From: Haloferula rosea
GTDB taxonomy: Bacteria > Verrucomicrobiota > Verrucomicrobiia > Verrucomicrobiales > Akkermansiaceae
Reading direction: 5' to 3'
Assembly (NCBI RefSeq): GCF_016595525.1
Contig: NZ_JAENII010000001.1
Span: forward strand, 186,001 to 250,000
Length of the DNA stretch: 64,000 nucleotides
Shown here: in pieces, positions 4,811-62,073 of the stretch
Numbering within the stretch: position 1 is the stretch's first letter
Layout of the letters: each line of letters opens with the position of its first letter
The notes under the pieces: model-generated
What the model saw: the letters and a program-made list of their open reading frames with translations, nothing else
Told to the model about the DNA's origin: nothing
Databases searched by the model: none
Made by a program: the position numbers and the translations under genes

Positions 4811-4839
4811 GATGGGTTCGTGTCGTTTGATGAATCGCT

Positions 4840-23803: not shown

Positions 23804-25177
23804 TCAGTAGCTCAGCTTGTTGCCCTTCTTGGGTTTGCGTGAGCCATCCTCCCACCATTCGCGGGGGCCTTCGGCTTCGATCTCCTTCCAGAGCTTCAGC
23901 AAGATGCCTTTCATTTCCTCGGTCTTCTCGGGCATCTTTTCCGAAAGTTCGTTCTCTTCCTTCCAGTCTTTCTGCACGTTGAAGAGCTGGAACTTCGTTA
24001 GGGTCTCGTTGCCGACGAGCTTCCAGTCGCCGATCCGCATCGCGACTCGGTCATCGGGGCCGGAGACGTGGGTGCGCCAGAATAACGGCACCTTGCGTTC
24101 CACCGGCTTTCCCGCGAAGGCGGGCACCATGCTGACGCCGTCGATCACCCGGTCCTCCGGCAAAGGGACACCGCACACCTCCAGCACGGTGGCGAAGATG
24201 TCGGAGCCGATCACCGGCACATCACTTTTGCTGCCGGCCTCGATATGACCCGGCCAGCGCGCCAGGCCGGGCACTCGAATGCCTCCTTCGTAATCGTTCC
24301 GCTTGCGCCCACGCAGGCCGCCAGTGGAGCCTCCCTTCACGCCACCTTTGCCCTCGGGCCCGTTGTCCGATGTGAAGATCAACAGCGTGTTGTCGGCGAC
24401 ACCCTGCTCGTCCAAAGCGTCCATCACCATGCCCAAAGCGTGATCCAGCTGAGTGATGTTCCCCATGTAGGTGCGGTTCGGATCATTCCCATACGGCTCT
24501 TGAAAGCGGGGATCGGTCGCGATCGGCAGGTGTGGCTCATGCAGCCAGACCGACAAGGCGAAAGGTTTAGAAGGATCCCGAATTTCCTTCAGCCATTTCC
24601 GTGCCTCCGCGGCCACCAAGGGTGCGGAGTATCCCTCCATCACTCCGACTTCCTTGCCATTGCGGACGAAGTTCTTCGGGTTCTTGTGGCTGGGGCTGGC
24701 ATTATTGTGGGTCGCCATCCAGTAGTCGTAGCCATGGTCGCCCGGCTGCGGGAACTCCCGGTTGTTGAACATCTGCCTGGAGTTCAGGTGCCACTTCCCC
24801 ACGTGACAGGTTTCGTAGCCCGCTTCCTTGAGCAACTCGGGATAGGTGATCTCACTGGTCCGCAGGTGGGTTGGCCCATTGCCTGACACGTGACACCACA
24901 CACCGTTCCTAAACGGGGTGCGACCGGTGAGGATGGCCGATCGAGAGGGGGAACAGACCCCGCAGGCCGAGTAGGCCTGGCTGAAGGTGACGCCCTGCTT
25001 TGCCAGTTTCTCCAAGTTCGGCGTCTTGATCAGCTCGTTACCGTAGACCGAGGAGTCGCCCCATCCCATGTCGTCGACCAGGAAGACCACGATGTTCGGG
25101 CGGGACTCCTCCGCATGGCTGACCAGTCCACCCATCCAGAGCAGAAGTGTAACCAGGAACATGGCCTTTGTTTTCAT
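23804..25177 (-). CDS. S1 family sulfatase (group B)
   Basis: 457 residues: signal peptide (about 1-22), PNIVVFLVDDMGWGD, ACGVC75-S-P-S-R79, CHVGKWHLNS and FTSDNGPEG, with EGGIRVPGLARWP. The closest relative in the window is the first gene of the cluster, 60333-61703; both share YGNELIKTPN, WMATHNNA, NFVRNG and a KLSY C-terminus. The two copies are therefore likely to act on the same or neighbouring sulfate esters. It sits 22 nt after GH97 and 11 nt before the SGNH esterase. Confidence 0.93.
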   Translation of the reverse strand: MKTKAMFLVTLLLWMGGLVSHAEESRPNIVVFLVDDMGWGDSSVYGNELIKTPNLEKLAKQGVTFSQAYSACGVCSPSRSAILTGRTPFRNGVWCHVSGNGPTHLRTSEITYPELLKEAGYETCHVGKWHLNSRQMFNNREFPQPGDHGYDYWMATHNNASPSHKNPKNFVRNGKEVGVMEGYSAPLVAAEARKWLKEIRDPSKPFALSVWLHEPHLPIATDPRFQEPYGNDPNRTYMGNITQLDHALGMVMDALDEQGVADNTLLIFTSDNGPEGKGGVKGGSTGGLRGRKRNDYEGGIRVPGLARWPGHIEAGSKSDVPVIGSDIFATVLEVCGVPLPEDRVIDGVSMVPAFAGKPVERKVPLFWRTHVSGPDDRVAMRIGDWKLVGNETLTKFQLFNVQKDWKEENELSEKMPEKTEEMKGILLKLWKEIEAEGPREWWEDGSRKPKKGNKLSY

Positions 25178-30852: not shown

Positions 30853-32454
30853 CTATTTCGAGGGTCCTCTCCTTTTCCGTTCCGAGTTCCCCTCAAGGTC
30901 CACGGCCTTCGTTCCCTTGAGTGCTGAAGACGCGTCATCGACGATCACATTGGGATGATGCTGTTCGCGATCCGTCCTAATCTCGAATGACCATGCATGC
31001 TGGCTTGCTCCAGGATTCGGGGGAGGGATGATCCGCAGACCCTTTGGGGTCATCAACCAGGAGACCTTCGCATCGCAACCCAAGAGCCGGACGCCATGCA
31101 CCTGGTTCTCACTCCAGCCAGCGGTGCCGGTGATCGTGAAGGGAGAGCCAGGTGGGGTCAGCTTGATCGCATACAGCTTCGTCCCCTTGGTGGTGAAAGC
31201 CAGAGCTTCGTCCTTCTGCTCGGACACCTTCCAGTAGCGTGAGCCGTAGATGGCATCGCCGTTGATCTTGAGCCAAGCGCCCATCGCTATGAGGCGCTCG
31301 ACCTGCGGTTCGGGAATCGTGCCGTCGGCCTTGGGACCGATGTTGATCAGGAAGTTGCCGTTGCGGCTGATCACCTCGACCATCTCGTGGATGATGCTTT
31401 CGACTGACTTGTATTTGTCGTTCGCCAGATAACCGAAAGAGGTGCCGAAGGTCGTGCAGCTCTGCCACTTCGGGCCGATCACCTTGAGCTTCAAATTGTC
31501 CTTCTCGAGGCAGCCGACACCATCCGGCCAGTTGCGGTTCGCTCCCTTGTTGTTGAGGTAAACCTCCGCGCCACGCGCAGCGCCATCATTCATGAAATCC
31601 GTGATCATCAGCCGCACCTGATCATCGAAATACCGCACCTCCGGCTTCGCCTTTCCTCCACGCACATTGTTGCCGTCCCGCGTGTAGATTGGAAAATCAT
31701 CCATCCACAGGAAGTCCGGTTGATACTTCGTCTGGATCTCCTTCCAGCGAGCGACGTAGTCATCGACGAATTGCTTGCTGGTACCGAAGGGTCCATAGAG
31801 CGAGGCGGCTTCCGGGACGCGCTTGATCTCCTCACTGATGTCATCCTGTGGCACGGCATCGACAACATACTGCTTCTTCGTGAAGAACGACTGGTGGCGT
31901 TCGCGATGGTAGGAAGGTGCATACTTCAAACCCCGCTTCTTCAGCGCCGTGCCCAGATCACCGACCAGATCGCGTTTCGGCCCCTTGTCGACCGCATTCC
32001 ATGGCGTGAGATCCGAGTCCCAGTTCGCCCAGCCGTCGTGGTGCTCAGCGGTCATCACCACATACTTCGCGCCGACCTCAGCAAACAGCTGCGCCCAGGC
32101 GTCCGGGTCCCACTTCTCGGCCTTGAACTCCGGAATGATGTCCTTGTAGCCGAACTCCGGCGGCGTCGCCCCCCAGCGCTTCTTCATGTAGGGGTAGTAG
32201 TGCTTGGAGTCGGTGTAGAACAACTTCGGGACGTGCTCCGAGTAGCCGCGCCCGCCCTTGCGGTAGCCGATCACGCTGTAGGGACCCCAGTGGATGAAGA
32301 TCCCGATCTTGCCGTCGTCGAACCACGCCGGCACCGGCATCTCCTGCAGCGACTCCCAAGAGCCGTCATAGGGGGTCTTCGATGTGTCGGCTTCGGCACA
32401 GATGGGAGCGAGCGCCACCAGAAGGGACGCTAGGATACATGGACGGTTTTTCAT
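30853..32454 (-). CDS. GH29 alpha-L-fucosidase
   Basis: 533 residues with signal peptide (about 1-22). IGIFIHWGPYS, YVVMTAEHHDGWANWDS, a long barrel insertion around 185-235 and YQPDFLWMDD with the predicted nucleophile Asp252. NGNFLINIGPKADG closes the barrel, then a C-terminal beta-sandwich. The TAEHHDGWA text differs from the TKHHxGFC text of the other three fucosidases, so it probably has a different linkage preference. Gaps of 117 nt upstream and 85 nt downstream leave room for its own promoter. Confidence 0.9.
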   Translation of the reverse strand: MKNRPCILASLLVALAPICAEADTSKTPYDGSWESLQEMPVPAWFDDGKIGIFIHWGPYSVIGYRKGGRGYSEHVPKLFYTDSKHYYPYMKKRWGATPPEFGYKDIIPEFKAEKWDPDAWAQLFAEVGAKYVVMTAEHHDGWANWDSDLTPWNAVDKGPKRDLVGDLGTALKKRGLKYAPSYHRERHQSFFTKKQYVVDAVPQDDISEEIKRVPEAASLYGPFGTSKQFVDDYVARWKEIQTKYQPDFLWMDDFPIYTRDGNNVRGGKAKPEVRYFDDQVRLMITDFMNDGAARGAEVYLNNKGANRNWPDGVGCLEKDNLKLKVIGPKWQSCTTFGTSFGYLANDKYKSVESIIHEMVEVISRNGNFLINIGPKADGTIPEPQVERLIAMGAWLKINGDAIYGSRYWKVSEQKDEALAFTTKGTKLYAIKLTPPGSPFTITGTAGWSENQVHGVRLLGCDAKVSWLMTPKGLRIIPPPNPGASQHAWSFEIRTDREQHHPNVIVDDASSALKGTKAVDLEGNSERKRRGPSK

Positions 32455-32571: not shown

Positions 32572-34731
32572 CTACCGGGCGGTCTCAACCGAAAGCTCCT
32601 GAAAGGCGGTGTTCTCGCCACCACCGGCGGCGGTGACCGGCGAAACCGCCCAGACGATCCAGCGGAAGGTTCCGAGTGATCCTCCTTCGGCGGCACGCAG
32701 GGACGCAGCGGTGAACTCGGACTTGGCCCGATCGGTCGTGTCGATCGTGCCGAGGGCGGTGAACTTGCCTAGATCCCAGCCGGGATCGGTCGTGGCATTG
32801 CTGCCGTAGATGGCCAGCTTCTGCGTACCCCGCGCTCCCTTGTAATGGTGGGACCAGCTGGTCACGGCCTGCACCGCTTTGGCCGAGCCAAGATCGATGC
32901 GGTAGGCCCCGGTGCGGACGCCATTCGGGAACACCGGACCGATGCCCGTGGCAAGGCGACCGTCGCCGAGCGACTCGAGAGGGTCGTTGGCGGTCTTCTG
33001 GTTCGCCGTGAAACGACCATCGCTCTGAGTCGGCCTCAGCTTGCGAAAGCCATCGGCATCGTCAGCCGATTCGACAAGCACCGAGGCACCCTCCATGAGG
33101 AAGGGCTTCCAGCCCGGAACGTTTGCGGCAACCGGAGTCCGATCCCGCTTGCTGCCGTTCGCTGCGGGCGGAGCAGGCGTTTCCGTGGTGGCCACGGCGT
33201 GGTCGATGATGATCTCCTGATAGAACGCTTTTGTCCGCGCGCGCAATTTCCCCAGCACCTCGGCGTGCTCGGGATTGTCGGCGAGGTTGTTCATCTCGGA
33301 AGGATCCTTCTCCAGATCGTAGAGCTCCTCGATGACCGGATCGTGCTCGTAGTAGATCAGGTACTTGTAGCGCGCGTCGGTCACGCCCCGGCAGCGGTAG
33401 GATTGGTTCTCGGCGATGAACCTTTCATTCACCTCCGCGACCTTCGGGTTCTTGCGCTGTCCGTGGAGCTTCGAGAGGAACAGGCTCTCATTGTAAACTT
33501 CCGTCCTCCAATCCGCCATGTCCTCGGTCTGGTGGAGCACCTTGGAGTAATCCCGTCCCTGCATGCGCTCGGGCACCTCGACACCGGCGAGGGAAAGGAT
33601 CGTGGGTGCCGTGTCGACCATGGAGATCAGCGCGGTCTCACGGCGTCCCCGCTTCTCCCTTGCCAAACGACCGTCGAAGACCACCAGCGGCGCCTTCATC
33701 GACTCGTCGTAGTGGATCGCCTTGTCGTAAAGCCCGTGCGAGCCGTGGAAGCGACCGTTGTCGGAAGTGTAGATGATCACGGTGTTGTCGAGCTGCCCCA
33801 TCTCCTCAAGCTTCGCCACCAGCCGGCCGACCTGCTGGTCGACGCTGTAGCCCTGCGTCGCGAAGCGCCGCACCAACCTTTGATAGAGTGCCGGCGTGGA
33901 GGTGCGGGCCTTGTGCAGCCCGACGCCACGCCAGTTGTCGAGCACCTCGGGCAGCTTGGTGTTCTTTCCCTCCACCCAGTTTTCCGGCACGCTGAAGTCG
34001 ACATCGGCGAACTCCTTGACGTGCGGCGGATACATGTCGTGATCGCTGTCGTTCTTCACCGCATAGAAGCTGACCGAGAGGCAAAACGGCTGGTCCTTCG
34101 GCTGGGTCTCGAGGAAGCGGATCATCGCATCGCCGGTCTTGAGGGTTCGCTCGTTCTTCGGCCGCTTCGGATCGAAAATTTCCTTCAGCTTGTCGTCCTC
34201 CGGCCAAGACGCGAAGTCCCCCCTGAAGTGAACCCCGTTGCCGGCGAAGAAATCGAAGTAGGGAGACAGGTGTTCCTCGAGATCGTAGCCCCTCACCTGG
34301 TCGCGGGTGTGGTAAGCCTCGTCGGTCACGGGGAAGCCGAACTTCCCAACGAAGCCGGTGCGATAGCCGGCGCCCTTCAACTTCGCTGGATAGGTGTCCT
34401 CGAAGTCCTTCTTCGGAAAGGTCAGGTTGTTGGGGTAGGTGAAGCCAACCCGGTGGTTCGAGAAGTAGCGCCCGGAGAAGATCGTGGCGCGACTCGGCAT
34501 GCAGATGGCCACCGTGTGGTAGGCCTTGTCGAAGACGACACCCTGATCGGCGAGTCGGTCGATGTTCGCGGTCCGGAACTCCGGCCGGCCATAGCAGCCG
34601 AAGCAGTCCCAACGCTGATCGTCGGTCATCAGGAAGACGATGTTCGGCTGCGACGGTCCCGCCGCCTGCGCCAGCTGCACATGGGCAGACAGACCGAGGA
34701 CGGCGAGGAAGGGGACAAGGAGGATATTCAT
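32572..34731 (-). CDS. S1 family sulfatase of a distinct subtype with discoidin-like C-terminal module
   Basis: 719 residues from the ATG at 34731, placed just before the signal peptide. PNIVFLMTDDQRWDC, formylglycine motif C77-M-P-S-R81, FVGKFGFP replacing GKWHLG, YTSDNGRF and HGLYDKAIHYDES replacing the EGGxRVP motif. The latter features recall the GlcNAc-6-sulfatase/choline-sulfatase-like branches of S1 and suggest another sulfate position. The last 165 residues form a beta-sandwich (SLGDGRL, IDLGSAKAV, FRWIVWAVSP) that is clearly homologous to the tail of the beta-helix enzyme at 34818, 86 nt upstream. The module may bind the substrate. Confidence 0.92.
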   Translation of the reverse strand: MNILLVPFLAVLGLSAHVQLAQAAGPSQPNIVFLMTDDQRWDCFGCYGRPEFRTANIDRLADQGVVFDKAYHTVAICMPSRATIFSGRYFSNHRVGFTYPNNLTFPKKDFEDTYPAKLKGAGYRTGFVGKFGFPVTDEAYHTRDQVRGYDLEEHLSPYFDFFAGNGVHFRGDFASWPEDDKLKEIFDPKRPKNERTLKTGDAMIRFLETQPKDQPFCLSVSFYAVKNDSDHDMYPPHVKEFADVDFSVPENWVEGKNTKLPEVLDNWRGVGLHKARTSTPALYQRLVRRFATQGYSVDQQVGRLVAKLEEMGQLDNTVIIYTSDNGRFHGSHGLYDKAIHYDESMKAPLVVFDGRLAREKRGRRETALISMVDTAPTILSLAGVEVPERMQGRDYSKVLHQTEDMADWRTEVYNESLFLSKLHGQRKNPKVAEVNERFIAENQSYRCRGVTDARYKYLIYYEHDPVIEELYDLEKDPSEMNNLADNPEHAEVLGKLRARTKAFYQEIIIDHAVATTETPAPPAANGSKRDRTPVAANVPGWKPFLMEGASVLVESADDADGFRKLRPTQSDGRFTANQKTANDPLESLGDGRLATGIGPVFPNGVRTGAYRIDLGSAKAVQAVTSWSHHYKGARGTQKLAIYGSNATTDPGWDLGKFTALGTIDTTDRAKSEFTAASLRAAEGGSLGTFRWIVWAVSPVTAAGGGENTAFQELSVETAR

Positions 34732-34817
34732 TCGATCATCGATGGGGCGTTCGGAGCTTCGCCACGGCTTCACGCCGCGGCGGATCGGGGTTGGTTCACG
34801 TATTTCCGGAAACCACT

Positions 34818-37727
34818 TTATGGCTTGGTTTCGACGGCAAGTTCCTGAAAGGCCGTATTCTCACCTCCGCCATTTGAAGAGACCGGTGACACGGCCCAGA
34901 CAATCCAGCGGAAATCGCCGAGCGATTCTCCATCCAGCGCTTGCAAGGAAGCAGCCGTGAACTTCGCCTTGCTGGCACCGGTGTCGATCGAGCCGAGCGG
35001 GGTGAAATTCTCGAGCTTGAAGCCGGGATCCGCTTCAGAGTTGCTGCCGTAGATCGTGAGTTTTTGAGGTCCTCGGTTATTTCCCATGCGGAACGACCAG
35101 CTCGTGATGGCGGTGACCGGCTTCACGGCACCGAGGTCCACCTTGTAGGCACCATTGTGGACGCCGTTGCCGAAGACCGGGCCGAAGTTCTCGGCAAGTT
35201 TGCCATCGGTCAGGGTGCTCAGTGATTCATTGTTCGTCTTGGGCGCAGCGCTGATCGAGAGCTTGGATTCGGCAGGCAAGGGGAGACGCTTGAAGCCATC
35301 CTCGGTCGAGGCCGACTCGATCTCCACAATGGACTTCCTTGTCACCGTGAGTTCGGTGGCTTTCTGATCACGGACCACCTTCAACTCGAGCGTCTTGGAT
35401 TTCTCCGCGGAAAGTGCGCGAAGCAGTTGGGCGATGTTCTTTACCGCCTTGCCATTGACTCCCTGGATCAGATCACCCGACTTCAATCCCTCCTTGGCTG
35501 CCGCGCTGTCCGCGGGGACTTTGGTCAAGGCCACGCCACCGTCTTCCTTGCTGACACCGTAGGCGGAGAACTCGACACCGCTCAGCTCACCGAGCTCAGC
35601 ACCCATCCACCGGGCGGTTCGAGGTTCGGATCTCCTTGTAGGCTTGGTTGATTGGCCTCCAATCTCGGGAATCACCGGAGTGCGGGCGATCGCCTTCAAG
35701 GAGGCCTTCTTCACGCCGAACTGGTCCATCGGGAAGTTCTTGAAGCCGATCTCAAATGCCGGCGACCCTTCCTTGACCTGGAAGTCACAATTGGCGGGGT
35801 CGACAAACATCGGATCACCGAAGACCGAGTTTTTGTCCCAGCCGAGCTTGTTGGAAATCTTCATCACGCTGGACTCGTCCGCCGCATAGAGGTTGCGGTC
35901 CACCATCGTGCCGTCCTTCGTGTACGGCGTGCTCATGCGCGCCGGCTTGTGGGGAGACATGAAGATGTTCGAAAAAACCTCGTCCTTGCTGCTTTCATAC
36001 CAAACGTGGGGGTGGAGCCCGTTGTTCACGGTGATGTTGTTCCAGGCCCGACGTCGGAAGCCTTCGCGGAGCTTCAGGCCGTTGTTGAGCATCAGGTTAT
36101 TGTAGATGTCGTAGTTGGACGATCCATCATCGAGGTCGATGTCCCAACCATGATCACAACGCCAGCGGCTGTCGCGAATGACCGTGGTCTTCATCGCATC
36201 CAGGAAGGGTAGCTCGGGATCCTTGTCGATCTCCTTCTGGGAATACCCGCGGTCCTTGTGCCAGAAGCGATCGCGGCCCCATGAGTTGAACGATCCGTGG
36301 TCGTGAGTTTCGAGCACCGTGTCGAACACGTCGCAGCGTTCGATCAGGTGGCCACCCCAAGTGCCTTCGCTGATGTTGATGCCCGCGCGCGCGGTATCGT
36401 AGATGGAGGTGTCGCGCACGGTGATGCCCTGGGCCATGGAGATCTGCACTCCGGCCGGTTGGCGCTCGACGCGACCAATGCCGTGAATCAGGCAGTCTTC
36501 CACGGCGGATTCCGATGGGTAGTTGTTGGTCTTTGGTCCGACCGTGCGGTCGATCTTCGAAAGGTCATTGGTTTCCTGATACTCGAACAAGGGATCACGA
36601 ACCGCATCCGGATCACCCACGAAGCACACCCCGCTCGCGCCGGCGTCGTGGATGTGGCAGCCCTTCACCAGCACCTTGCGGTTGTAGTTGTTGACGAAGA
36701 CGGCGTTGCCTCCGACCTGGTCGAACTCGGTATCAAGAATCCGGATGTCTTCGGTGCCGGTGAGGAAATACGCACCGCCGCGGTAGATCGCCCAGTCCGA
36801 GCGCAGCAGGGGTTCCTTGCAGTCCATGAAGGTGCGGGCCGCATGCCGGACGACGAAACCCTGAAGCGTGATGTGCTTCACCGGCTGCGCTTCTGATCCC
36901 TTGAACTCGATCAGATGGCGCAGGCGCACCACCTCGACCTTGGCGGCATTGAGATCTGTGCCTGCCACGGGCATGTAGTAGAGCGTGTTCGTCTTGGCGT
37001 CGTGGAACCATTCGCCTTCCGCATCCAGTTCCTCAAAGATGTTTTCCACCATGCGGTAGTCCTTGTGCATGCCCATCTGGCGGTTGTTCTGCCAACCGCC
37101 CTCGTAGGTCACCTCACCCTTCGCATTCTTGCCGGTGATCCGGTAGTGGTAGCCGCCCCAGCGAGCCTTGTGCAGGGAATGAATGTAGCCGCCCGTGGGG
37201 TCGGCCCAGGTTGCCGCACGTTCCTTCGAGAAGGCATCGGCAGCGTATCCCTGATAGGGTTCCGCCTTCTTCGCTGGGTCGTAGTTCGGGTAGCGAGCCA
37301 TGCGCTGGTTCTTCCCATCGATGAATACCTGATCGATCACCAGTCCGTCCGGCGTGGCCGCTTTGAAAACTCCGCCTTGGTGTGGTTCCCACGACAACTC
37401 GAGCTGTGACCCGCCGCTGAGCACGGCGCCGCCCTCGTTGACCGACTTGTAGATGACCGGATGCTCGGCCGAACCCGAGTCCTCTGGCGTGAAGACTAGC
37501 GTCTCAGGCAGGTAGTAGATGCCATCCGCGAGGTGAACCGTGACGGCCTCCTTGCCGGCGAAGGTTCTGGCCCGTTGCTGGGCGGAGGCGAGTGAAGCCA
37601 GCGGTTGGTCCTTGCTGCCGGAGGCCGTGTCGGCTCCGTCTGGGCTGACGTAGATGTCCGCGGCATGGACCACGGAGAGTAGTGTGCCGAAAAGGATGCA
37701 GGAGAGGGGTCGAGTGGGCGTCTTCAT
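34818..37727 (-). CDS. GH141-like parallel beta-helix enzyme fused to PDZ and discoidin-like domains
   Basis: 969 residues from the ATG at 37727, followed by a signal peptide (to about 22). Residues about 23-690 begin IYVSPDGADTASGSKDQPLASL, the typical opening of right-handed beta-helix glycan-active proteins, and contain helix rungs such as ITLQGFVVRHAA, DIRILDTEFDQVGGNAVFV and DIYNNLMLNNG. Length and style resemble GH141 (fucosidases/xylanases); the assignment is probable, not proven. Residues about 714-797 are a PDZ domain (GVALTKVPADSAA, GLKSGDLIQGVNG). Residues about 798-969 are a discoidin-like module shared with the neighbouring sulfatase. A PDZ inside a secreted CAZyme is unusual and suggests peptide docking. 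Confidence 0.75.
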   Translation of the reverse strand: MKTPTRPLSCILFGTLLSVVHAADIYVSPDGADTASGSKDQPLASLASAQQRARTFAGKEAVTVHLADGIYYLPETLVFTPEDSGSAEHPVIYKSVNEGGAVLSGGSQLELSWEPHQGGVFKAATPDGLVIDQVFIDGKNQRMARYPNYDPAKKAEPYQGYAADAFSKERAATWADPTGGYIHSLHKARWGGYHYRITGKNAKGEVTYEGGWQNNRQMGMHKDYRMVENIFEELDAEGEWFHDAKTNTLYYMPVAGTDLNAAKVEVVRLRHLIEFKGSEAQPVKHITLQGFVVRHAARTFMDCKEPLLRSDWAIYRGGAYFLTGTEDIRILDTEFDQVGGNAVFVNNYNRKVLVKGCHIHDAGASGVCFVGDPDAVRDPLFEYQETNDLSKIDRTVGPKTNNYPSESAVEDCLIHGIGRVERQPAGVQISMAQGITVRDTSIYDTARAGINISEGTWGGHLIERCDVFDTVLETHDHGSFNSWGRDRFWHKDRGYSQKEIDKDPELPFLDAMKTTVIRDSRWRCDHGWDIDLDDGSSNYDIYNNLMLNNGLKLREGFRRRAWNNITVNNGLHPHVWYESSKDEVFSNIFMSPHKPARMSTPYTKDGTMVDRNLYAADESSVMKISNKLGWDKNSVFGDPMFVDPANCDFQVKEGSPAFEIGFKNFPMDQFGVKKASLKAIARTPVIPEIGGQSTKPTRRSEPRTARWMGAELGELSGVEFSAYGVSKEDGGVALTKVPADSAAAKEGLKSGDLIQGVNGKAVKNIAQLLRALSAEKSKTLELKVVRDQKATELTVTRKSIVEIESASTEDGFKRLPLPAESKLSISAAPKTNNESLSTLTDGKLAENFGPVFGNGVHNGAYKVDLGAVKPVTAITSWSFRMGNNRGPQKLTIYGSNSEADPGFKLENFTPLGSIDTGASKAKFTAASLQALDGESLGDFRWIVWAVSPVSSNGGGENTAFQELAVETKP

Positions 37728-40858: not shown

Positions 40859-42604
40859 CTAGCGTTCGGTGGGCTCGAGGATGAGCATCTTGAGGTTGAA
40901 TAGGGCCGATTTCCGTGTCTTCCCGAAACCAAGGGTGCAGTCGGTCACGCCCACCTGGTTCAGCTTGATCTCTCCGAAGTCGAGCAACTGGTAGTCCTTC
41001 CATCCCTGGGTCGGCTTGACGCTCGCCTCGAGTGTCTGTCCGCCGATGCTCAAGCGTGCATCGCTTCCGGCGTAGCGTCTGTCGCAGGCGTACAGGGCCT
41101 TCACCCGGAATACGTCCGGAGCAGGCACGTTCAGGGCCCACGATGCAGTCGCGTCCGGCTCGGTCCAGTATCCGATCTGGGTGCCATTCTCCAGTTTGAT
41201 CTCCGGCCCGGAAAGCTTCGCATCACGGGCTTGGAGGACCAGTTCGTCTCCTGAGAATTGATGGTCGGCGGTGGAAACGGGCTGGGGCGACATGGTCTTG
41301 TAATCCACCCGCAGGACAGTGGCGTAGTCGTTTGCCTCGACCGAGGAAAGATCGATGCTGATGCCTTCCTTCGTGTGGCTCGCTGCGAGCACCTTGCCTG
41401 CAAATGTCGAAACATCCGCTTGCCCGAGTCGGATTCCATTCAAGCCCAGCTTCCCGGACTTTGGCCAATCGAACACGTAGAGGAAAAGGCTGCCCTTCTC
41501 CGGCTTGGAGCCTTTTGCCTGAGCCACGCGCCCCCACGGTTGTTCGGGCAATGCAATGAACTCGGCCTCACGGAGCGCTTCGGCATGAGCGGAGGTCCAT
41601 CTGCCCATGTCCTCCAGTTGTTGGATCGACATTTCCGGCCAGGATCCATCGGCACGGGGTCCCACATTCAGCAGGAGGTTTCCGCCTTTCACCACGATAT
41701 CGACGAGTTTCTGAATCAGCACCTCGGTGCTCTTCCACTTGGTGTCACTCTTCTTGAATCCCCATGAGTGGTTCACCGTCCAGCAGGACTCCCACGCGTG
41801 GTCCATGGCCGCGCCCGGCGTGAAATTCTCTGGAGTTCCGAAGTCCTTCTTGAACTGCTTCCGCTTGGCAACCCGGTTGTTGATGACCATGTCGGGGCTG
41901 AGTTCGCGAAGGTAGTTGTACAGGTCGACCCCATCCTCCATGGTCCACCAGTTGGCCCAGTCTCCATCGAACCACATGACGGCGGGATCGTATTGCTCGA
42001 TCAATTCCTTGAGCTGCGCCTTCATGTAATTGACGTAGCCCTCCTTGTCATGCATCGGGGTTTGATTCGATGCCTGCCTGGCGCGCTGGGAGGGGTGGTG
42101 CCAGTCGATGATCGAATAATAAGTGCCGAACCCGAGGCCATGCTTGTCGCATGCCGCTTTCAGCTCACCCAGAATATCGCGGTCGAATTCCGTTCCCTCC
42201 CCGAGATCAAATTCCGTCTGGTCACTGTCCCAGAGGCAGAATCCTTCATGGTGCTTGGTCGTGATGACCATGTACTTCATGCCGGCTTCTTTCGCTCGTT
42301 TCACCCACGCGTCGGCATCCAGCGCATCAGGTCTGAAGTCCGCCGACAACGGAATGTATTCCTCCGGGGTGATCTTTCCCCAGCGCTGGATCCACTCGGC
42401 ATACTTCGGAACCGGCTTGCCTTTCCATTCTCCCCCGAGGGTCGAGTAGACCCCGTAGTGGATGAAGAGGCCGAACTTGGCGTCCGTGAACCACTGCATC
42501 CGTTGCTGGTGAGCCACGTCGCTTTCGGGGAGCAACTCCGCTGCGTGACCCGGCGATTGGCCCATCAACAGACCAGCCAGAACGTAAGACAGTTGTTTCT
42601 TCAT
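40859..42604 (-). CDS. GH29 alpha-L-fucosidase with C-terminal carbohydrate-binding-like domain
   Basis: 581 residues from the ATG at 42604 with signal peptide (about 1-21). FGLFIHYGVYS, YMVITTKHHEGFCLWDS, GFGTYYSIIDWHHPS and AVMWFDGDW with the predicted nucleophile Asp213. GGNLLLNVGPRADG precedes a C-terminal beta-sandwich, and the last 140 residues (from YWTEPDATASWALNVP) look like the beta-domain often found on GH29 proteins of the A type. Translation may be reinitiated after the beta-helix gene stop 25 nt upstream. Confidence 0.92.
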   Translation of the reverse strand: MKKQLSYVLAGLLMGQSPGHAAELLPESDVAHQQRMQWFTDAKFGLFIHYGVYSTLGGEWKGKPVPKYAEWIQRWGKITPEEYIPLSADFRPDALDADAWVKRAKEAGMKYMVITTKHHEGFCLWDSDQTEFDLGEGTEFDRDILGELKAACDKHGLGFGTYYSIIDWHHPSQRARQASNQTPMHDKEGYVNYMKAQLKELIEQYDPAVMWFDGDWANWWTMEDGVDLYNYLRELSPDMVINNRVAKRKQFKKDFGTPENFTPGAAMDHAWESCWTVNHSWGFKKSDTKWKSTEVLIQKLVDIVVKGGNLLLNVGPRADGSWPEMSIQQLEDMGRWTSAHAEALREAEFIALPEQPWGRVAQAKGSKPEKGSLFLYVFDWPKSGKLGLNGIRLGQADVSTFAGKVLAASHTKEGISIDLSSVEANDYATVLRVDYKTMSPQPVSTADHQFSGDELVLQARDAKLSGPEIKLENGTQIGYWTEPDATASWALNVPAPDVFRVKALYACDRRYAGSDARLSIGGQTLEASVKPTQGWKDYQLLDFGEIKLNQVGVTDCTLGFGKTRKSALFNLKMLILEPTER

Positions 42605-42629
42605 GAGGGTATTCGATGGGTTTCGGATT

Positions 42630-44816
42630 CTAGTTGCTGCCATGCCCGGCTCCATCGCGTTCGATCTTCAAGGGCATGCCTGAGCCAAAACGTTTGAGGA
42701 AAGGATCTCTGGTCGTGCCCATCCTCGAGACGATTTCCTCAGACATGGGCTCAATGCCCAAGGCCATTGCCGGTGAGCCGGGTTTGTAGGAAAGGTCGCC
42801 ATGTGCGAGATCCACGAAGAGCGGGTCGCCGGCGACACTGTGAGCATCGACCTTTCCTCCCTTGTCCTTCTTCCGCTGGGCTGCGAGGAGCTTTCCCGCA
42901 CTCCCATCTTCATGATGATACAGGTTGTAGTCGACCCCGGCTCCGACACGCTCGAGCTTGCTGTGAAAGCTGCCGAGCTTGGCGCCGCTGGTGAAATAGA
43001 AGACATTCCGGCTCAATTCGCTATCCGGGTGCACGGTGTTTCCGGCGCCACCGGTTCCCATCACACAGTTGATGTATGCGTTGTGCTGGGAGGTATTCAG
43101 GCCCTTGATGGCGATTCCCTGGGGGCTGACCGTGCCGAACAGCAGGTTGTGGCTGACCGTCGAGCCATGGCTGTCGTCATCGGTGCGGATCATCGCCCCG
43201 CTGGTATGATTGTAGGTCACGTTGTAGCGGACGATGTTTCCATCCCCATTCCCTGATAGGTAGATGCAGTTCCCGTCGTGGAGCAGCTTGAGGCAGTCGT
43301 GAACCTCATTGAATTCAATCACGTTTTCACGCGCATGCATGTAGGGTTCATAGGCCGACCACTCCGTGGCCGAGGTCAGCTTGATCTCGTCCCACCGGAT
43401 CGTGGGAAGGTGCTCGCGGGTGCCTTCCGGACAGGACCATCTCGCGAAAGGGTTTTTCTTCACCCCCATTTCCTCGAAGAGCGTGGCGAAGAAACGGCGA
43501 CGCACGCCGGACACCACCAATCCGGTGTAGGCCTGGTCGTAAATGTGATTGTTTGAGATCCGGTTGTGGCCGCTCTGCCAGACGAACACGCCGGGCGAAT
43601 GCAGGAACAATCGTCCGACCCGGGTGATCTCGTTGTTGTGGATGATGTTGTGCCTGTTGACGTCCTTCTTGCCGGGGCCGTAGCCGCAGAGCAGGACACC
43701 CGTCCCGCCGAGATCCCTGAAGGTTGATCCTTCAATGGTGATCTTCTGGCAGAACAGATCGAGGCGCACGCCGTCGCTGCCGCTGTCCGAGAAGGTGCAA
43801 TCACGAACCATGCAGTTCCGTGCGCCGCGGAAACGCAGCAGCCCGTTGGCCTTGTCCCAGAGGTTCCAGTCGTGCTGGATCCCCTTGTCCTGAGGCAGCC
43901 ACTTCTGGCGATCCGCATGGGCGAAGCGAAGCCCTTCAAAGACGATGCCCTCCACGGGGTGGTCCTTCTTGCCGGCCAGGGTCGGATCGTTCACTCCCTC
44001 CACCCGGATCAATTCGTCCAGCACAGGCGCGATGATGTTGTCACCCGGCGTGCCTGACTCCGGCCAGTAGTAGAGCATTCCTTTCTGGGAATTCAGCGCC
44101 CACTCGCCCGGTTCATCCAGGTGCTCGATGCAGTTCTCCACCTGGAACGCGCCGAACATGTTGTAAGTGGCCGGTACTGATAGCTTTGCCGAACGGGTGG
44201 CCGGATCCACCGATTCGATGCCAAGGTAGTTGACGAGCCATGCGCGGGTCGGGCGTCCGTACAGCTCCAGGTCTTCAAGGTTCCCGACCGGTTTCAGCAG
44301 GTCCTTCGTGTAGGTGAAGTGGATCCGGTCCTTCACCTTTCCCGCATACATTTTGCGAACTCCCCCACACGAAACCGAAAAACCCTCGGACCTTGCACGC
44401 TGCAGAAGCTTGCTCCCGTCATAGAGGCAGTGGAAGAAGGCGTCACCCTTGGCCCATGGCACTTTCGCCATCCACACCTTGCCATCCTGGAGATCGGATT
44501 TCTCCCAATCGGTGATCACACGGCCGCCGCTGATCAGTGGGCTGGCCCCTTGAGCCGCCCTGTAGCGGGTCACCGCTCCCGCAGGAGCGGAATCCTGCAA
44601 GCCAAACACCAGTGGGTTCTTCAGTGCATAGACGCCTTGGTGAAGAACCACATCAATGTCGCCCATCTCACCACCGGCCCTCAACTTGCGCACAGCGTCG
44701 CGAGCCGCGACCAGATCACGGATCTCTCCGCCGGGTTCAACGATGATCTCACGCGCCGTCAGGCAGCCGATCATGGCTACGAGACCGAGCCCTAAACGAA
44801 GTGCTTCCTTTTTCAT
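42630..44816 (-). CDS. GH141-like parallel beta-helix protein
   Basis: 728 residues, signal peptide about 1-20. Opens IIVEPGGEIRDLVAARDAVRKL, then LISGGRVITDWEKSD and many beta-helix rungs: CMVRDCTFSDSGSDGVRL, KITIEGSTFRDLGGTGVLL, NIIHNNEITRVGRL and NVIEFNEVHDC. These fit right-handed parallel beta-helix carbohydrate-active proteins; the arrangement resembles GH141. It is related in fold to the protein at 34818 but has no PDZ or discoidin tail. A fucosidase or xylosidase-like exo-activity is a guess from the locus. GH29 follows after 25 nt. Confidence 0.7.
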   Translation of the reverse strand: MKKEALRLGLGLVAMIGCLTAREIIVEPGGEIRDLVAARDAVRKLRAGGEMGDIDVVLHQGVYALKNPLVFGLQDSAPAGAVTRYRAAQGASPLISGGRVITDWEKSDLQDGKVWMAKVPWAKGDAFFHCLYDGSKLLQRARSEGFSVSCGGVRKMYAGKVKDRIHFTYTKDLLKPVGNLEDLELYGRPTRAWLVNYLGIESVDPATRSAKLSVPATYNMFGAFQVENCIEHLDEPGEWALNSQKGMLYYWPESGTPGDNIIAPVLDELIRVEGVNDPTLAGKKDHPVEGIVFEGLRFAHADRQKWLPQDKGIQHDWNLWDKANGLLRFRGARNCMVRDCTFSDSGSDGVRLDLFCQKITIEGSTFRDLGGTGVLLCGYGPGKKDVNRHNIIHNNEITRVGRLFLHSPGVFVWQSGHNRISNNHIYDQAYTGLVVSGVRRRFFATLFEEMGVKKNPFARWSCPEGTREHLPTIRWDEIKLTSATEWSAYEPYMHARENVIEFNEVHDCLKLLHDGNCIYLSGNGDGNIVRYNVTYNHTSGAMIRTDDDSHGSTVSHNLLFGTVSPQGIAIKGLNTSQHNAYINCVMGTGGAGNTVHPDSELSRNVFYFTSGAKLGSFHSKLERVGAGVDYNLYHHEDGSAGKLLAAQRKKDKGGKVDAHSVAGDPLFVDLAHGDLSYKPGSPAMALGIEPMSEEIVSRMGTTRDPFLKRFGSGMPLKIERDGAGHGSN

Positions 44817-49848: not shown

Positions 49849-51321
49849 TTACTTGCCGCTCTTCCAAAGTTTGATCTCCGCGATGTCGTTCTTCGCTGGG
49901 GGACCCTTCGTGCTGCGGCCGTTGGCGACGTCCGCTTCCAGTTGGGCAAGCAGGCGGGCCGCGACTTCAGGATGGGATTCGTAGAGGTTGGTCGTTTCGC
50001 CCGGATCCTTCTCCATGTCGTAGAGCTGGGCTTTCGGAGCGCCGCTCTTCTTCGCCTCGGGCTCCTTTGGACTGGTCCAACCGCCGGACCCATAGGCCAG
50101 CAGCAGCTTCCACGGTCCCTGGCGATAGGCGAAGTGCCCGGAGATGGAATGATGAATGACACCGGCTCTTGTCGACTCGATGGGGGCGCCGGACAAGGCA
50201 GGGAGGAAGCTTACGCTGTCCTCGGCGGCATTCGCGGGTATCGGTTGATCAAGGATGTCCGCGCAGGTCGCGAACAGGTCGGTGTGGCAAATCAGTTCAT
50301 CCGATATCGAACCCGGCTTGATCTTCGCAGGCCAGCGAACGAGGAAAGGCACGCGGTGTCCGCCATCCCAAAGGTCGGCCTTGGAGCCGCGCAGATGGGC
50401 GCTCACGTGGTGACCCTTCTTCTGGAGCTCGGGAATTCCGGCACCTTTCGAGGTTCCGTTGTCAGCGGTGAACACCACCAGCGTGTTCTCGGCAAATCCG
50501 TTCCGATCCAGCGCCTCAAGGATCCGGCGCACCCCATCATCGGTTTCCATCACGAAGTCCGCATGCTTGTTGAGGCCGCTTCGTCCCTGCCATTCCTTGG
50601 TGGGCACAATCGGGGCATGGGGTGACCCGTAGGGCACATAGAGAAAGAAGGGCTGTCCCTTGCTAGCCTTGGCACGGCCGTCGATGTATTCCACCGCCGC
50701 GCGGGTCAGGCGGGGAAGCATGTGGATTTCCTCCTCGTGGGCGATGACGGTATCGTTCTCGATGACGCCCTTCATGTCGCCGGCATGATGGAAACCGTGG
50801 AAGTGGTCGAAGCCGCGGTTGACCGGGCCGTCAGGGATCTTGCTGCCGACGGGGGCCAGCATCTTCTTGCTCTTGCGCTTCAGAATCTTGCCACTTTCCG
50901 GATCGCTGTACTGAAAATTCAGGTGCCACTTTCCGACGATGCCCGTGTGATAGCCTTGCTGCTTGAGGAAGGAGGCTACGGTCGGACGATCTTCGGCGAT
51001 CAAGCACGGTGCGAATCCCTGAACGACGCCGCTCTGGAGTTTTGTCCGCCAGGCGTAGCGACCGGTCAGCAAGCCGTAGCGCGTCGGCGTGCAGACCGCC
51101 GACCCGGAGTGGGCATCCGTGAAGATCATCCCTTCCTTTGCGATGCGATCCATGGCAGGCGTGGGGATCTTTCCTCGCTCAGGGTTCAGGATCGATACAT
51201 CACCGTAGCCCTGATCATCGGTCATGATGTAGACGATGTTCGGTTTCGACGCGGCATCCTCGGCCGCCGCTGCAGGAACGAGGGCAGCGAGAAGGAACAG
51301 GGCGCGAATTCTTGAGATCAT
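49849..51321 (-). CDS. S1 family sulfatase (group A)
   Basis: 490 residues, signal peptide about 1-20. PNIVYIMTDDQGYGD, LNPERGKIPTP, formylglycine motif C77-T-P-T-R81, IVGKWHLNF, FTADNGTSK and DGGHRVPFLV. The C-terminus ends IKLWKSGK, as in the other group A proteins at 4840 and 52896. The central region (FDHFHGFHHAGDMKGVI) differs from its paralogues, which suggests altered specificity. It follows the propeller gene by 15 nt and precedes the sulfatase remnant by 26 nt. Confidence 0.93.
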   Translation of the reverse strand: MISRIRALFLLAALVPAAAAEDAASKPNIVYIMTDDQGYGDVSILNPERGKIPTPAMDRIAKEGMIFTDAHSGSAVCTPTRYGLLTGRYAWRTKLQSGVVQGFAPCLIAEDRPTVASFLKQQGYHTGIVGKWHLNFQYSDPESGKILKRKSKKMLAPVGSKIPDGPVNRGFDHFHGFHHAGDMKGVIENDTVIAHEEEIHMLPRLTRAAVEYIDGRAKASKGQPFFLYVPYGSPHAPIVPTKEWQGRSGLNKHADFVMETDDGVRRILEALDRNGFAENTLVVFTADNGTSKGAGIPELQKKGHHVSAHLRGSKADLWDGGHRVPFLVRWPAKIKPGSISDELICHTDLFATCADILDQPIPANAAEDSVSFLPALSGAPIESTRAGVIHHSISGHFAYRQGPWKLLLAYGSGGWTSPKEPEAKKSGAPKAQLYDMEKDPGETTNLYESHPEVAARLLAQLEADVANGRSTKGPPAKNDIAEIKLWKSGK

Positions 51322-51336
51322 GGGATTCTTAAGGGA

Positions 51337-52899
51337 TCAGGGTTCAAAGTGGAGTTGCACCTGATCGAGGATCGGCTTGGACTCGTTTTCGGTCGTGTCT
51401 GTCAGGCGAAGCTCGAACTGAAATCCGTATCCTTCCGGTAGGTCATCCAAATCCAGCTGTGCCGGGGTCTTGGCGACCTGTTTGGCAAATCCGGGAATGG
51501 CCTCGTAGCGCTCGCTCACCGACTGCCATTCTGTCCACTTGTCGACAGATCCGTCCTTGTCGGTATCCACGCCGACGCGGACCTCCACGCCATCGACCCA
51601 AGGTCCGGGGCTGACAAAATCCTGATTCGTCTGGGTGATCAGGTAGAACATCCCTTCGGCGAACATGATATCCGGGTCGGGGTGGCCTTGGCCGATGTTG
51701 CCGCAGAAGGTGAAGGGCTTGTTGATGTCGGAGGAGGTGAACCAGGCCACGCTCATGGCCTGCTTGCCGTGGCCACCGGCAGGATCGAAATCGCAGAACA
51801 GGTAGTACTGCCCGCCGATCGAAATCGCCGACCAGTCGCCGTAGGCGTTCTGCTCCGGTTCGTGGATTTCATACTCCGCCACGGACCTGACCTCGCCTTC
51901 CTTGATCCGGTGCTGGGGAATGCTCTGCGTTACCACCTTGCCGGGGAATTTCTCCGGAGCCGTCCGATACCAGTGGGGATGAAAGTATTCACCGAACTTG
52001 CCGGTTGGGTTCGTGCGCTCGTCCACTGCCGGTTCCACAATCCTGAAGCCGCCCTTGCCATCCTCGCTCACGGCGTGGCCCGCGAGAGGCGAGTCCCAAG
52101 CGTGCTTGCTGGCGTCGATCGGGCTCCAGTCCTCGTAGATCAAATGGAACCTGCCCTCAAGATCGCGGATCACGGCGCAGTCGGAACCGTGTGATGGATC
52201 CGCGAAAGCCATGCCCATGTCCTTCCCGGCCACTCCATCGATCAGGTCCTCCTCAATCACGAGGTGAGGATCCTGGTCGTTGGGGTAGTCATAGTAGATG
52301 TAGGCCTTCCCATCAACGAGTTCGGCCGTGGTCACACAGCCTCGCGCCGTCACCTGGCCGTGATAGACCCAGTTGAGCATGTCACGGCTTTGCCAACCGT
52401 GGTAGCCGGCTTTGCGCTTCGTGAGGCCTCCCGGAGCGATGAATTGATTCGGGTAGGATGAGGTCAGAAGGGGCATGTCGAATCCCTCAAGGGTCGCCGG
52501 CAATCCCGCACCCTTGGTCTGCTTTTCCCGCCCGTAGGCTGCGAAGATCCAATAGTTCTGCGGTCCCATCCGGAGGAAGACCGGCGCATTGCTTGCATTG
52601 GCCGGTCCGATGTTCCCGGCATCCTCCCAGTTCTGCCAGGCTGGCGACTGGCTGAGCGTGATCTTCCCGGCCTGACGCTTCTCGGAAAAAATCCTCAGCT
52701 TGCTCTGATAGACGGCCTTCTCCCCGCTGGGCGATGCCTGACCATCGGCAATCTCCAAACCCTCCTGATGCGACAGGTTCGCCTTCCACTCGTCCTGGCT
52801 GGCAATCGTCCAGGTCTTCGCTTCGTCCTCAGCGAAACAGGCTCCCGGGAGCCCGAGAACCAGCAGCGCCAAGGTAGGGGATTTTGACGTCTTCATCAT
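51337..52899 (-). CDS. Secreted beta-propeller protein, GH43/GH117-like, copy 2
   Basis: 520 residues (ATG at 52899, a second at 52896), signal peptide about 1-23. Same architecture as the 3263-4810 protein: QNYWIFAAYG, YHGWQSRDMLNWVYHG, HGSDCAVIRDLEGRFHLI, GQYYLFCDFDPAGGHG, DIMFAEGMFYLITQ, and a DTDKDG acidic site near the C-terminus; both end LPEGYGFQFELRLTDTTEN-type text. Relative to copy 1 it has an insertion near VVTQSIPQHRIKEGE. The start overlaps the upstream sulfatase stop by 4 nt. I infer a conserved enzyme pair with a group A sulfatase. The family assignment is tentative. Confidence 0.6.
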   Translation of the reverse strand: MMKTSKSPTLALLVLGLPGACFAEDEAKTWTIASQDEWKANLSHQEGLEIADGQASPSGEKAVYQSKLRIFSEKRQAGKITLSQSPAWQNWEDAGNIGPANASNAPVFLRMGPQNYWIFAAYGREKQTKGAGLPATLEGFDMPLLTSSYPNQFIAPGGLTKRKAGYHGWQSRDMLNWVYHGQVTARGCVTTAELVDGKAYIYYDYPNDQDPHLVIEEDLIDGVAGKDMGMAFADPSHGSDCAVIRDLEGRFHLIYEDWSPIDASKHAWDSPLAGHAVSEDGKGGFRIVEPAVDERTNPTGKFGEYFHPHWYRTAPEKFPGKVVTQSIPQHRIKEGEVRSVAEYEIHEPEQNAYGDWSAISIGGQYYLFCDFDPAGGHGKQAMSVAWFTSSDINKPFTFCGNIGQGHPDPDIMFAEGMFYLITQTNQDFVSPGPWVDGVEVRVGVDTDKDGSVDKWTEWQSVSERYEAIPGFAKQVAKTPAQLDLDDLPEGYGFQFELRLTDTTENESKPILDQVQLHFEP

Positions 52900-54398
52900 T
52901 TCCCGCTCTTCCAGAGTTCAATCTCAGCCACATCGTTCTTGGCGGCAGCACCATCCGTGCTGCGCCCGCGACTCACGTCCGACTCCAGCTGTTTCAAGAG
53001 GCGTTCCGCGACTTCCGGGTGCGACTCGTAGAGGTTCTTCGTTTCGCCCGGATCCGCCTCAAGGTCGTAGAGTTGGGCCACCGGAGCACCCTTCTTCACC
53101 TGCTTCTCGGTCGGCGAGGTCCACCCACCGGAACCCTTTGCCAGCAGCAGCTTCCATTTCCCCTGACGGTAGGCGAAGTGGCCGCTGATCGAATGATGGA
53201 TCACGCCCTTGCGCGTCGATTCGATGGTTTCACCCTTCAGTGCCGGAGCGAAGCTGATGCTGTCCTCGCCAGCATTGTCGGGCAGAGTTGCACCACTCAA
53301 CTCGGCACAGGTCGCCATCAGATCGGTCAGGCCGATCGTCTGGTCACTGGTCGAGCCCGCCTTCACCACTTTCGGCCAGCGGACGATGAATGGCACGCGG
53401 TGGCCGCCGTCCCACAGGTCGGCCTTCGATCCCCGAAGGTGAGCGCTCGGGAAGTGGCCCTGCGCCTCGAGCCGGTCGATCCTTGCCGCCTTCGAACAGC
53501 CATTGTCCGCGGTGACGATGACCAGCGTGTTGTCGGCGAAGTCCGAAGCATCCACCGCCTTCATGATCTCACCGATCACGTGGTCGGTTTGCATCTGGAA
53601 ATCTCCGTAGCTGCCGAGCCCGCTCTTGCCCTTCCATTCCTCGGTCGGAACGATGGGGGTGTGTGGCGAGGTCAGCGGCACGTAGATGAAGAATGGCTTC
53701 GAACCGTCCTGCTTCTCGATGTATTCGACGGTCTTGCGTCCGATCTCCGGCAGCACCTGGTCCTTCTTGAATCCTGGTGCGGGTTTGGTCGGCTGGCTGT
53801 TGTCCGCGGTGCCGACGAAGCGATCGTTCTCGATCCAGATGTAGGGAGCCATGTCGAGCGAGGCCGAAATCCCATAAAGGTAGTCGAAGCCGCGATCCAC
53901 GGGGCCGTCCTTGATTTCACCCTTCCAATCGATGTGCGTTCGCTTGGGCTTCCGTGAATCCGGAGGTCCATCCATGATGGGCTTTCCTTCAAGCACGGGC
54001 AGGTTCATCCCGAGGTGCCACTTGCCGACCATTGCGGTTTTGTATCCCTGCTGCTTGAGCAAGGCGGGGACGGTCAACCGATCGGCGTCGATCAGTGGCT
54101 CGCTGTAGCCCCAGAGCACGCCCTTCTGCAAATGGGTGCGCCAGTTGTAGCGGCCGGTCAGTACGCCATAGCGGGTCGGTGTGCAGACCGAGGAACTCGA
54201 GTGCGCATCGGTGAAAATCATCCCTTCCGCTGCCAGGCGATCCATGTGGGGGGTGGGGATCTTGCCCCGCTCGGGATTGAGGCACTGCACGTCGCCGTAG
54301 CCCATGTCATCCGCAAAGATGTAGATGATGTTGGGTTTCGGTGCGGCTCGCAGCGTGACGAGCGAGACGAAGAGCAGGAGAATGAGTCGGTTCTTCAT
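52896..54398 (-). CDS. S1 family sulfatase (group A)
   Basis: 500 residues, signal peptide about 1-18. PNIIYIFADDMGYGD, QCLNPERGKIPTPHMDR, formylglycine motif C72-T-P-T-R76, MVGKWHLGM, VTADNGCSK and [10 protein letters not shown], ending IELWKSGK. Very similar to 4840 and 55712 over the whole length. The stop overlaps the propeller gene start (ATGA), giving the same sulfatase-then-propeller order as the cassette at 3263-6390. The esterase gene precedes it by 42 nt. Confidence 0.94.
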   Translation of the reverse strand: MKNRLILLLFVSLVTLRAAPKPNIIYIFADDMGYGDVQCLNPERGKIPTPHMDRLAAEGMIFTDAHSSSSVCTPTRYGVLTGRYNWRTHLQKGVLWGYSEPLIDADRLTVPALLKQQGYKTAMVGKWHLGMNLPVLEGKPIMDGPPDSRKPKRTHIDWKGEIKDGPVDRGFDYLYGISASLDMAPYIWIENDRFVGTADNSQPTKPAPGFKKDQVLPEIGRKTVEYIEKQDGSKPFFIYVPLTSPHTPIVPTEEWKGKSGLGSYGDFQMQTDHVIGEIMKAVDASDFADNTLVIVTADNGCSKAARIDRLEAQGHFPSAHLRGSKADLWDGGHRVPFIVRWPKVVKAGSTSDQTIGLTDLMATCAELSGATLPDNAGEDSISFAPALKGETIESTRKGVIHHSISGHFAYRQGKWKLLLAKGSGGWTSPTEKQVKKGAPVAQLYDLEADPGETKNLYESHPEVAERLLKQLESDVSRGRSTDGAAAKNDVAEIELWKSGK

Positions 54399-61703: not shown

Positions 61704-62073
61704 GGGTTGGTCGATATACTCAAAACGCGGTTTTGCGGTGGGTCTTTCGAAAGATGCGACGCGGTTCGATAAGTCCATGGCTGTCAGACGCCAATAAGAC
61801 CGTTGTTTGGAGAATTGCCGGGATCTTTCGCGGCTTGCAGACAGGAGGGGTGAAACGGAGCTTTCCATCCCTCGAAACAAGCCAAGACTATCTAAAATAT
61901 GCCAAAATGACGAAAAGTGTTAACGAGATTCACGGTGTGCTGACGCCAAAGGGTCCTCCCAGCTGGCTGGCTGATCCGAAGTTGCGGCCCGCGTCGAGGA
62001 CGGGAAGATCCGCAGTCTGGAGTGAAAGAATTCGAGGGCTCCGTCCAGAAACTCGTTAACGTCGTGGCGCCCT
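61704..62073. promoter_or_regulatory. Divergent intergenic region between the sulfatase cluster and the sigma factor gene
   Basis: About 370 nt carry the start sites of both transcripts. On the minus side, CAAAAC-GCG-GTTTTG (61721-61735) is a perfect 6-bp inverted repeat 18 nt before the sulfatase ATG. GTTAACGAG at 61919-61927 and its reverse complement CTCGTTAAC at 62054-62062 lie in inverted orientation, about 125 nt apart. The same 10-mer CGTTAACGAG also occurs at 410-419. No clear -35/-10 pair can be set with confidence. I read this as a candidate shared control region. Confidence 0.4.

Follow-up and report, generated by a model that had tools for sequence, protein, structure and literature searches.

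A GH141-type beta-helix protein of Haloferula rosea, a probable endo-fucanase, carries a PDZ domain that is kept in nearly all collected relatives

Fucoidan, a sulfated sugar of brown seaweed, is hard to degrade and acts as a marine carbon store. Four GH141 enzymes of Wenyingzhuangia fucanilytica, Wf141_3 among them, were reported in 2025 to be endo-fucanases, and Wf141_3 was assigned to a new separate branch for which 250 homologues were gathered at 50-85% identity (PMC12786026). Here we describe a relative of Wf141_3 from Haloferula rosea, encoded on the minus strand at 34818-37727 of a 64,000-nucleotide stretch (contig NZ_JAENII010000001.1, positions 186,001 to 250,000; the window). Its open reading frame (ORF) starts with ATG and encodes 969 aa, and a TTG 57 bases upstream of the ATG is a possible alternative start. 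The GH141 endo-fucanase branch is already published; what appears new, judged by keyword searches of the literature, is its nearly universal PDZ domain.

The forward primer of Wf141_3 (WP_068825880.1) has an exact match in one of seven Wenyingzhuangia genomes, where the gene encodes 790 aa. Full-length Wf141_3 shares the beta-helix and the PDZ with the window protein (66% identity over 801 columns, PDZ included, and within the range used for homologues in the paper), and differs from it in having no CBM32-like tail and in having been studied only without its PDZ. In the 790-aa protein LDIYVSPNG starts at residue 23 and GVSEELKK ends at residue 687, which corresponds to the reported construct L23-K687 and leaves it about ten residues short of the PDZ (approximately residues 696-790). 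Among the reverse primers for the four enzymes, only that for Wf141_3 is without the gene's own stop codon, and the construct was therefore cut before the PDZ by design. The word PDZ is absent from the main text of PMC12786026, and keyword searches of the literature found no description of the PDZ domain of this GH141 branch. The Wf141_3 locus contains two sulfatases as well as ORFs whose ends agree with those of Wf141_2 and Wf141_4; on account of these ORFs it is taken to be the fucoidan cluster.

With a probability of roughly 0.72, we regard the window protein as an exported GH141 endo-alpha-L-fucanase of the Wf141_3 branch, belonging to a cluster for fucoidan-type degradation, with the PDZ as a non-catalytic accessory. 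Exported by way of its predicted signal peptide, the beta-helix enzyme would cut the sulfated fucan backbone, and sulfatases together with GH29 and GH95 enzymes would finish the fragments. Because the Wf141_3 construct without the PDZ was reported to be active as an endo-fucanase, the PDZ would not be needed for catalysis in that enzyme, and the PDZ of the window protein is most likely dispensable for catalysis as well.

The full-length protein was modeled with AlphaFold2 from an alignment of 87 sequences (mean pLDDT 93.1, pTM 0.78), and the only stretches with pLDDT values below 50 were residues 1-3 and 693-700, the latter in the linker before the PDZ. In a fold comparison of the model, residues 21-681 matched BT1002 (BT_1002, 5mqp), a GH141 alpha-L-fucosidase that acts on rhamnogalacturonan II, with Z 36.8 and rmsd 2.8 over 505 aligned residues; the next row had Z 28.0. 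Apart from the fold the two proteins differ: identity is 19%, the 601-residue chain of BT1002 is covered by the beta-helix of the window protein alone, with no PDZ seen, and the active-site residues are others (PMC12786026). By sequence, the nearest solved chains were 9rx2, a parallel beta-helix repeat protein (2.5e-28), and 5mqp (1.1e-18). The family profile aligned by hhalign to a GH141-type alignment of 10 sequences (the window protein encoded at 42630-44816, Wf141_2, Wf141_4 and seven others) with E 3.8e-68 over 617 columns; the three named proteins share the beta-helix and fall in a separate tree group, the one from the window without a PDZ match. Pfam Beta_helix scored above its cut-off in the 969-aa protein. 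The Pfam insertion domain GH141_M reached 19.1 bits and stayed below its cut-off of 27; we did not regard it as required for GH141 membership, because the other GH141-like protein of the window narrowly misses this cut-off as well (26.4 bits). By predicted fold and by profile, the beta-helix thus belongs to GH141.

The signature xRxDx is described for GH141 endo-fucanases (PMC12786026). Asp533, invariant in both family alignments (A1 and A2), is set by the profile comparison on the Asp that fits this signature. BT1002 has two catalytic aspartates, D523 and D564, and in the window protein D533 alone is reliably aligned with the xRxDx Asp; D476, within an invariant D-H-G, is a guessed candidate for the second, at a site where the alignment is unreliable.

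The genomic surroundings agree with a role in the breakdown of a sulfated fucan. A Pfam scan of 36 ORFs of the window gave 16 sulfatases, four GH29 proteins, a GH95, a GH97, a raffinose-synthase-like protein, a GDSL lipase and the second GH141-like protein. Two further ORFs of the cluster, 3263-4858 (531 aa) and 51337-52899 (520 aa), had no Pfam match at 1e-6. Among 79 loci with relatives (collected as described below; no random-gene control), sulfatases lay near the relative in 53, and in 46 of the 62 loci of at least 12 kb; with GH29 and GH95 included the counts were 59 of 79 and 51 of 62. Natural fusions occur too. In L013, L022 and L060 a GH95 domain precedes the beta-helix in the chain, which may go back to one event, as L013 and L022 are sisters in the tree; in L139 a GH95 domain is fused C-terminal to the PDZ, and there the beta-helix is split over two frames. 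In Neorhodopirellula pilleata (L018:7965-12371, 1469 aa: beta-helix, PDZ and sulfatase) a sulfatase is fused C-terminal to the tail, and this was the only case where the family's own ORF matched a window sulfatase. L032, considered as another such fusion, was rejected since the matching ORF lies on the other strand. Table 1 lists the features.

Table 1. Features of the 969-aa protein and of neighbouring genes, with their coordinates in the window
Feature	Coordinates	Strand	Basis
Predicted Sec signal peptide, residues 1-22	37662..37727	-	Basic N-terminus, then a hydrophobic core and small residues ahead of the cut; Wf141_3 construct begins at L23
GH141-type right-handed parallel beta-helix, predicted catalytic domain, residues 23-686	35670..37661	-	BT_1002 fold match; hhalign to GH141 alignment
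D533, candidate catalytic aspartate	36129..36131	-	Aligned with the invariant Asp of the xRxDx signature (PMC12786026)
Variable linker, residues 687-702	35622..35669	-	pLDDT <50 at 693-700; low conservation
PDZ domain, residues 703-797	35337..35621	-	Pfam PDZ_2; DegP/DegQ PDZ matches; models
CBM32/discoidin-like tail, residues 806-967	34827..35312	-	Foldseek CBM32/DOC-domain matches; identity to the tail of the adjoining sulfatase
Adjoining downstream sulfatase (gap of 44 bp), C-terminal tail shared	32572..34773	-	Pfam Sulfatase 3.8e-43
GH29 alpha-L-fucosidase	30853..32454	-	Pfam Alpha_L_fucos 1.6e-91
GH29 alpha-L-fucosidase	40859..42655	-	Pfam Alpha_L_fucos 2.1e-89
Another GH141-like beta-helix protein, without PDZ match	42630..44816	-	Groups with Wf141_2, a characterised endo-fucanase, and Wf141_4 (long branches meet in the tree)

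An earlier note on this DNA had called a GH141-like beta-helix, a PDZ domain and a discoidin-like tail, and Pfam, fold matches and models bear out these calls and their coordinates; in the models the PDZ spans about 703-797. PDZ_2 scored 38.1 bits (cut-off 27; 2e-9) at 725-795 and 5.2e-11 with the isolated PDZ segment, PDZ_6 and PDZ were also above their cut-offs, and 46 of 47 family PDZ segments matched PDZ_2 (E 0.01). The PDZ domains of DegP and DegQ match the region by sequence, and among the Foldseek matches MamP (4jj0; 95 columns, E 2.1e-3) is assigned to the PDZ by its length. In contrast to the DegP/DegQ/HtrA domains, this PDZ is borne by a glycan enzyme and not by a protease, and it has a family-specific signature of S-A-x-G and R-x-Q.

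Conservation was read from 116 PDZ rows, in which the own sequence is counted twice and a lineage with diverged PDZ domains is absent. The loop motif W-[LM]-G-A, which by form and place we take to be the GLGF-like carboxylate-binding loop, is well kept (W707 in 102, G709 in 108 and its A in 97 rows). So are the residues of the signature, namely S721 (114), A722 (113), G724 (116), R786 (115) and Q788 (116), and G731 and D752 have zero entropy. Mean column entropy was 1.77 bits for the loop and first strand, 2.18 for the whole PDZ and 2.85 for the groove helix (764-774), the most variable of the segments compared. Distances between PDZ domains correlate with those between beta-helices (r 0.82, 6670 pairs), as shared descent alone would yield, and there is therefore no sign of frequent domain exchange. 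We conclude that the domain is a real PDZ under selection, and most likely accessory to catalysis.

The relatives came from two kinds of scans. A contig scan found 484, the best 80 of which gave the 79 loci; ranking by the full-length query favours PDZ-bearing relatives. Scans of phyla used an E-value cut, and loci were taken from at most 30 matches each. Counting tail-only and distant matches, which are among them, 36 of 387 genomes matched in the phylum of the window (E 1e-30), and at E 1e-40 eight of 294 in the phylum of a planctomycete and nine of 395 in that of a Polaribacter. In the order of an Aliiglaciecola the only match among 148 genomes was the centre genome itself. Duplicates were removed, as were ORFs in which fewer than 350 residues of the beta-helix aligned or the alignment did not extend to position 560 of the query (664 residues). 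This left 134 distinct ORFs, the own one included, with a substantial match to the beta-helix, and 130 of them have a PDZ by the family profile (E 1e-3). The earlier note had regarded PDZ domains as unusual in carbohydrate enzymes and suggested a search for the fusion elsewhere; within this GH141 branch the PDZ is the rule, and the fusion is found across several phyla, so that chance or an event in a single genome is rejected as its origin.

By identity, a PDZ was present in 91 of 91 ORFs at 60% or more, 21 of 22 at 50-60%, 14 of 14 at 43-50%, four of six at 30-43% and none of one below 30%. Wf141_3, one of the enzymes reported to open fucoidan, was published without its PDZ, yet 126 of the 127 collected relatives at 43% or more keep theirs. 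PDZ-less are L154, L150, L155 and L140. The four PDZ-bearing ORFs at 30-43% identity are L117 and the diverged L151, L152 and L161. The latter three were considered as PDZ-less and rejected as such: past the beta-helix, each has a diverged C-terminal PDZ by the family profile (E 5.9e-6, 1.3e-7 and 3.8e-5), which is below the Pfam cut-offs in L151 and L152, where a Fn3-associated domain is inserted ahead of it; L161 was assessed by the family profile. Named PDZ-bearing members belong to Verrucomicrobiota, Planctomycetota, Lentisphaerota, Kiritimatiellota and Bacteroidota, and also to Pseudoalteromonas (L057) and Aliiglaciecola (L055), both Gammaproteobacteria.

In a tree of 88 rows the PDZ-bearing members other than the diverged L151 and L152 fall, together with L154, in one group (support 93), with L150, L151, L152 and L155 forming the neighbouring one (support 94), both supports being under the 95 mark; L150, L154 and L155 are the only PDZ-less rows. 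This pattern would fit a single early gain of the PDZ followed by at least two losses. The domain would then have joined the beta-helix in an ancestor and mostly been kept since. The genome of the window itself has a second beta-helix-PDZ protein (L156:6509-8905 on contig C68, 49% identical), with a next ORF that matches a GH29 of the window. Another genus (g2) of the family to which the window belongs has relatives too, in genomes of only 2.7-3.5 Mb (L112-L114 and L116; four of 20 among the g2 genomes listed).

Several points weigh against reading the window protein as an endo-fucanase with an accessory PDZ. The detailed work of the published study was on Wf141_1 and Wf141_2, and the activity of Wf141_3 is stated in its abstract, introduction and conclusions; the Wf141_3 preparation was Ni-purified only and showed minor bands, and its active site is described as unlike those of the other enzymes (PMC12786026). 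L154, at 55% identity, has no PDZ, an unrelated frame coming next. With mean distances of 0.62 against 0.39, the PDZ diverges more quickly than the beta-helix, which fits a dispensable part. As to activity, the beta-helix could be an exo-fucosidase or act on another sulfated glycan. GH141 is multifunctional and includes the xylanase Xyn141E besides the alpha-L-fucosidase BT1002 (PMC12786026). For the relatives in the small g2 genomes fucoidan may, at a guess, not be food. However, with 66% identity to Wf141_3 and surroundings rich in sulfatases and fucosidases, we consider such an activity unlikely and keep to the endo-fucanase.

The accessory PDZ of this endo-fucanase would most likely make a protein contact through the carboxylate loop and S-A-x-G / R-x-Q, be it to the beta-helix of the same chain, to a second copy or to an exported partner. 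If the contact were intramolecular, the PDZ would use S-A-x-G / R-x-Q to clamp the beta-helix at its C-terminal end and would have lost peptide binding. This is consistent with the variable groove helix and with the invariant Q788, where DegP PDZ1 has G, next to nearly invariant S721, A722, G724 and R786; a tail-less model gave pTM 0.90, between rough expectations of about 0.83 for a floating and 0.94 for a fixed PDZ, which makes it a weak test. On the other hand, the linker is variable and of low pLDDT, the carboxylate loop is conserved too, Tyr replaces Q788 in the diverged lineage, and the beta-helix alone (Wf141_3 L23-K687) expresses and is reported active (PMC12786026), and a clamp is to us possible rather than probable. 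The earlier note had proposed that the PDZ could dock onto C-terminal peptides of enzymes encoded nearby and so form a periplasmic or surface complex. A functional link to the neighbours is indeed supported by the natural fusions to GH95 and sulfatase, and such fusions and gene pairs, the conserved W-[LM]-G-A loop and the shared ends of some window sulfatases would all suit docking; three of these sulfatases (4840-6390, 49849-51321 and 52896-54398) have the end LWKS[EG]K in common, and two (23804-25177 and 60333-61880) the end KLSY. The C-termini themselves argue against it: among 149 non-redundant sulfatase, GH29 and GH95 ORFs of the 79 loci, 21.5% end in V/I/L/F/M/W/Y/C, compared with 30% on average for positions -13 to -39, none of the last-four motifs was seen more than two times, and LWKSxK was not found. 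The ends of the recurrent partner sulfatase differ among loci, 19 of the 23 C-termini listed for the cluster in the window lack a final residue of this kind, and the groove helix varies more than the entire domain does. A simple form of docking, on hydrophobic ends of neighbours, is thus unsupported, though the ligand may be an unusual one, and docking on the cluster's enzymes in general seems improbable. Self-association, where in tail-less forms the chain end directly after the PDZ would bind the PDZ of another copy, is in line with a final L, I, M or F in 16 of 33 distinct tail-less members (79 loci), the residue being L in 11. It is very doubtful all the same, as the window protein runs on into a tail whose final residue is P, and the models put the terminal residues of the short forms within or adjacent to the last strand of the PDZ, which may explain their hydrophobic ends. 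A bolder view, which we hold to be rather unlikely, is that of an assembly module that spread across phyla with its enzyme: through the conserved loop and S-A-x-G / R-x-Q it would bind one conserved exported partner or glycan end and so hold the endo-fucanase in a degradation complex. If true, fucoidan degradation would have a PDZ-based counterpart of cohesin-dockerin.

The tail beyond the PDZ had no Pfam match at E 1, and the Foldseek search with the whole model returned CBM32/DOC-domain chains (about 150 columns, E about 1e-3), which by their length would cover the tail. It is optional in the family, being matched in 65 of 159 ORFs, a count that takes in fragments and repeats. In L016 (6738-9053) and L017 (10914-13283) the chain continues C-terminal to the tail with extensions of 772 and 790 aa, which had no Pfam match at 0.001. 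The tails of the window protein and of the adjoining sulfatase share 58-59% identity (E 1.2e-54), and the same tail is also found on other ORFs adjoining relatives (L011, L012 and L019). A sulfatase with at least 50% identity to the downstream one (best local alignment) lies near or is fused to the family gene in at least 11 of the 79 loci (L011, L018, L053, L055, L057, L058, L059, L063, L064, L075 and L077). The CBM32-like tail common to the enzyme and its partner sulfatase most likely serves to hold both on the glycan.

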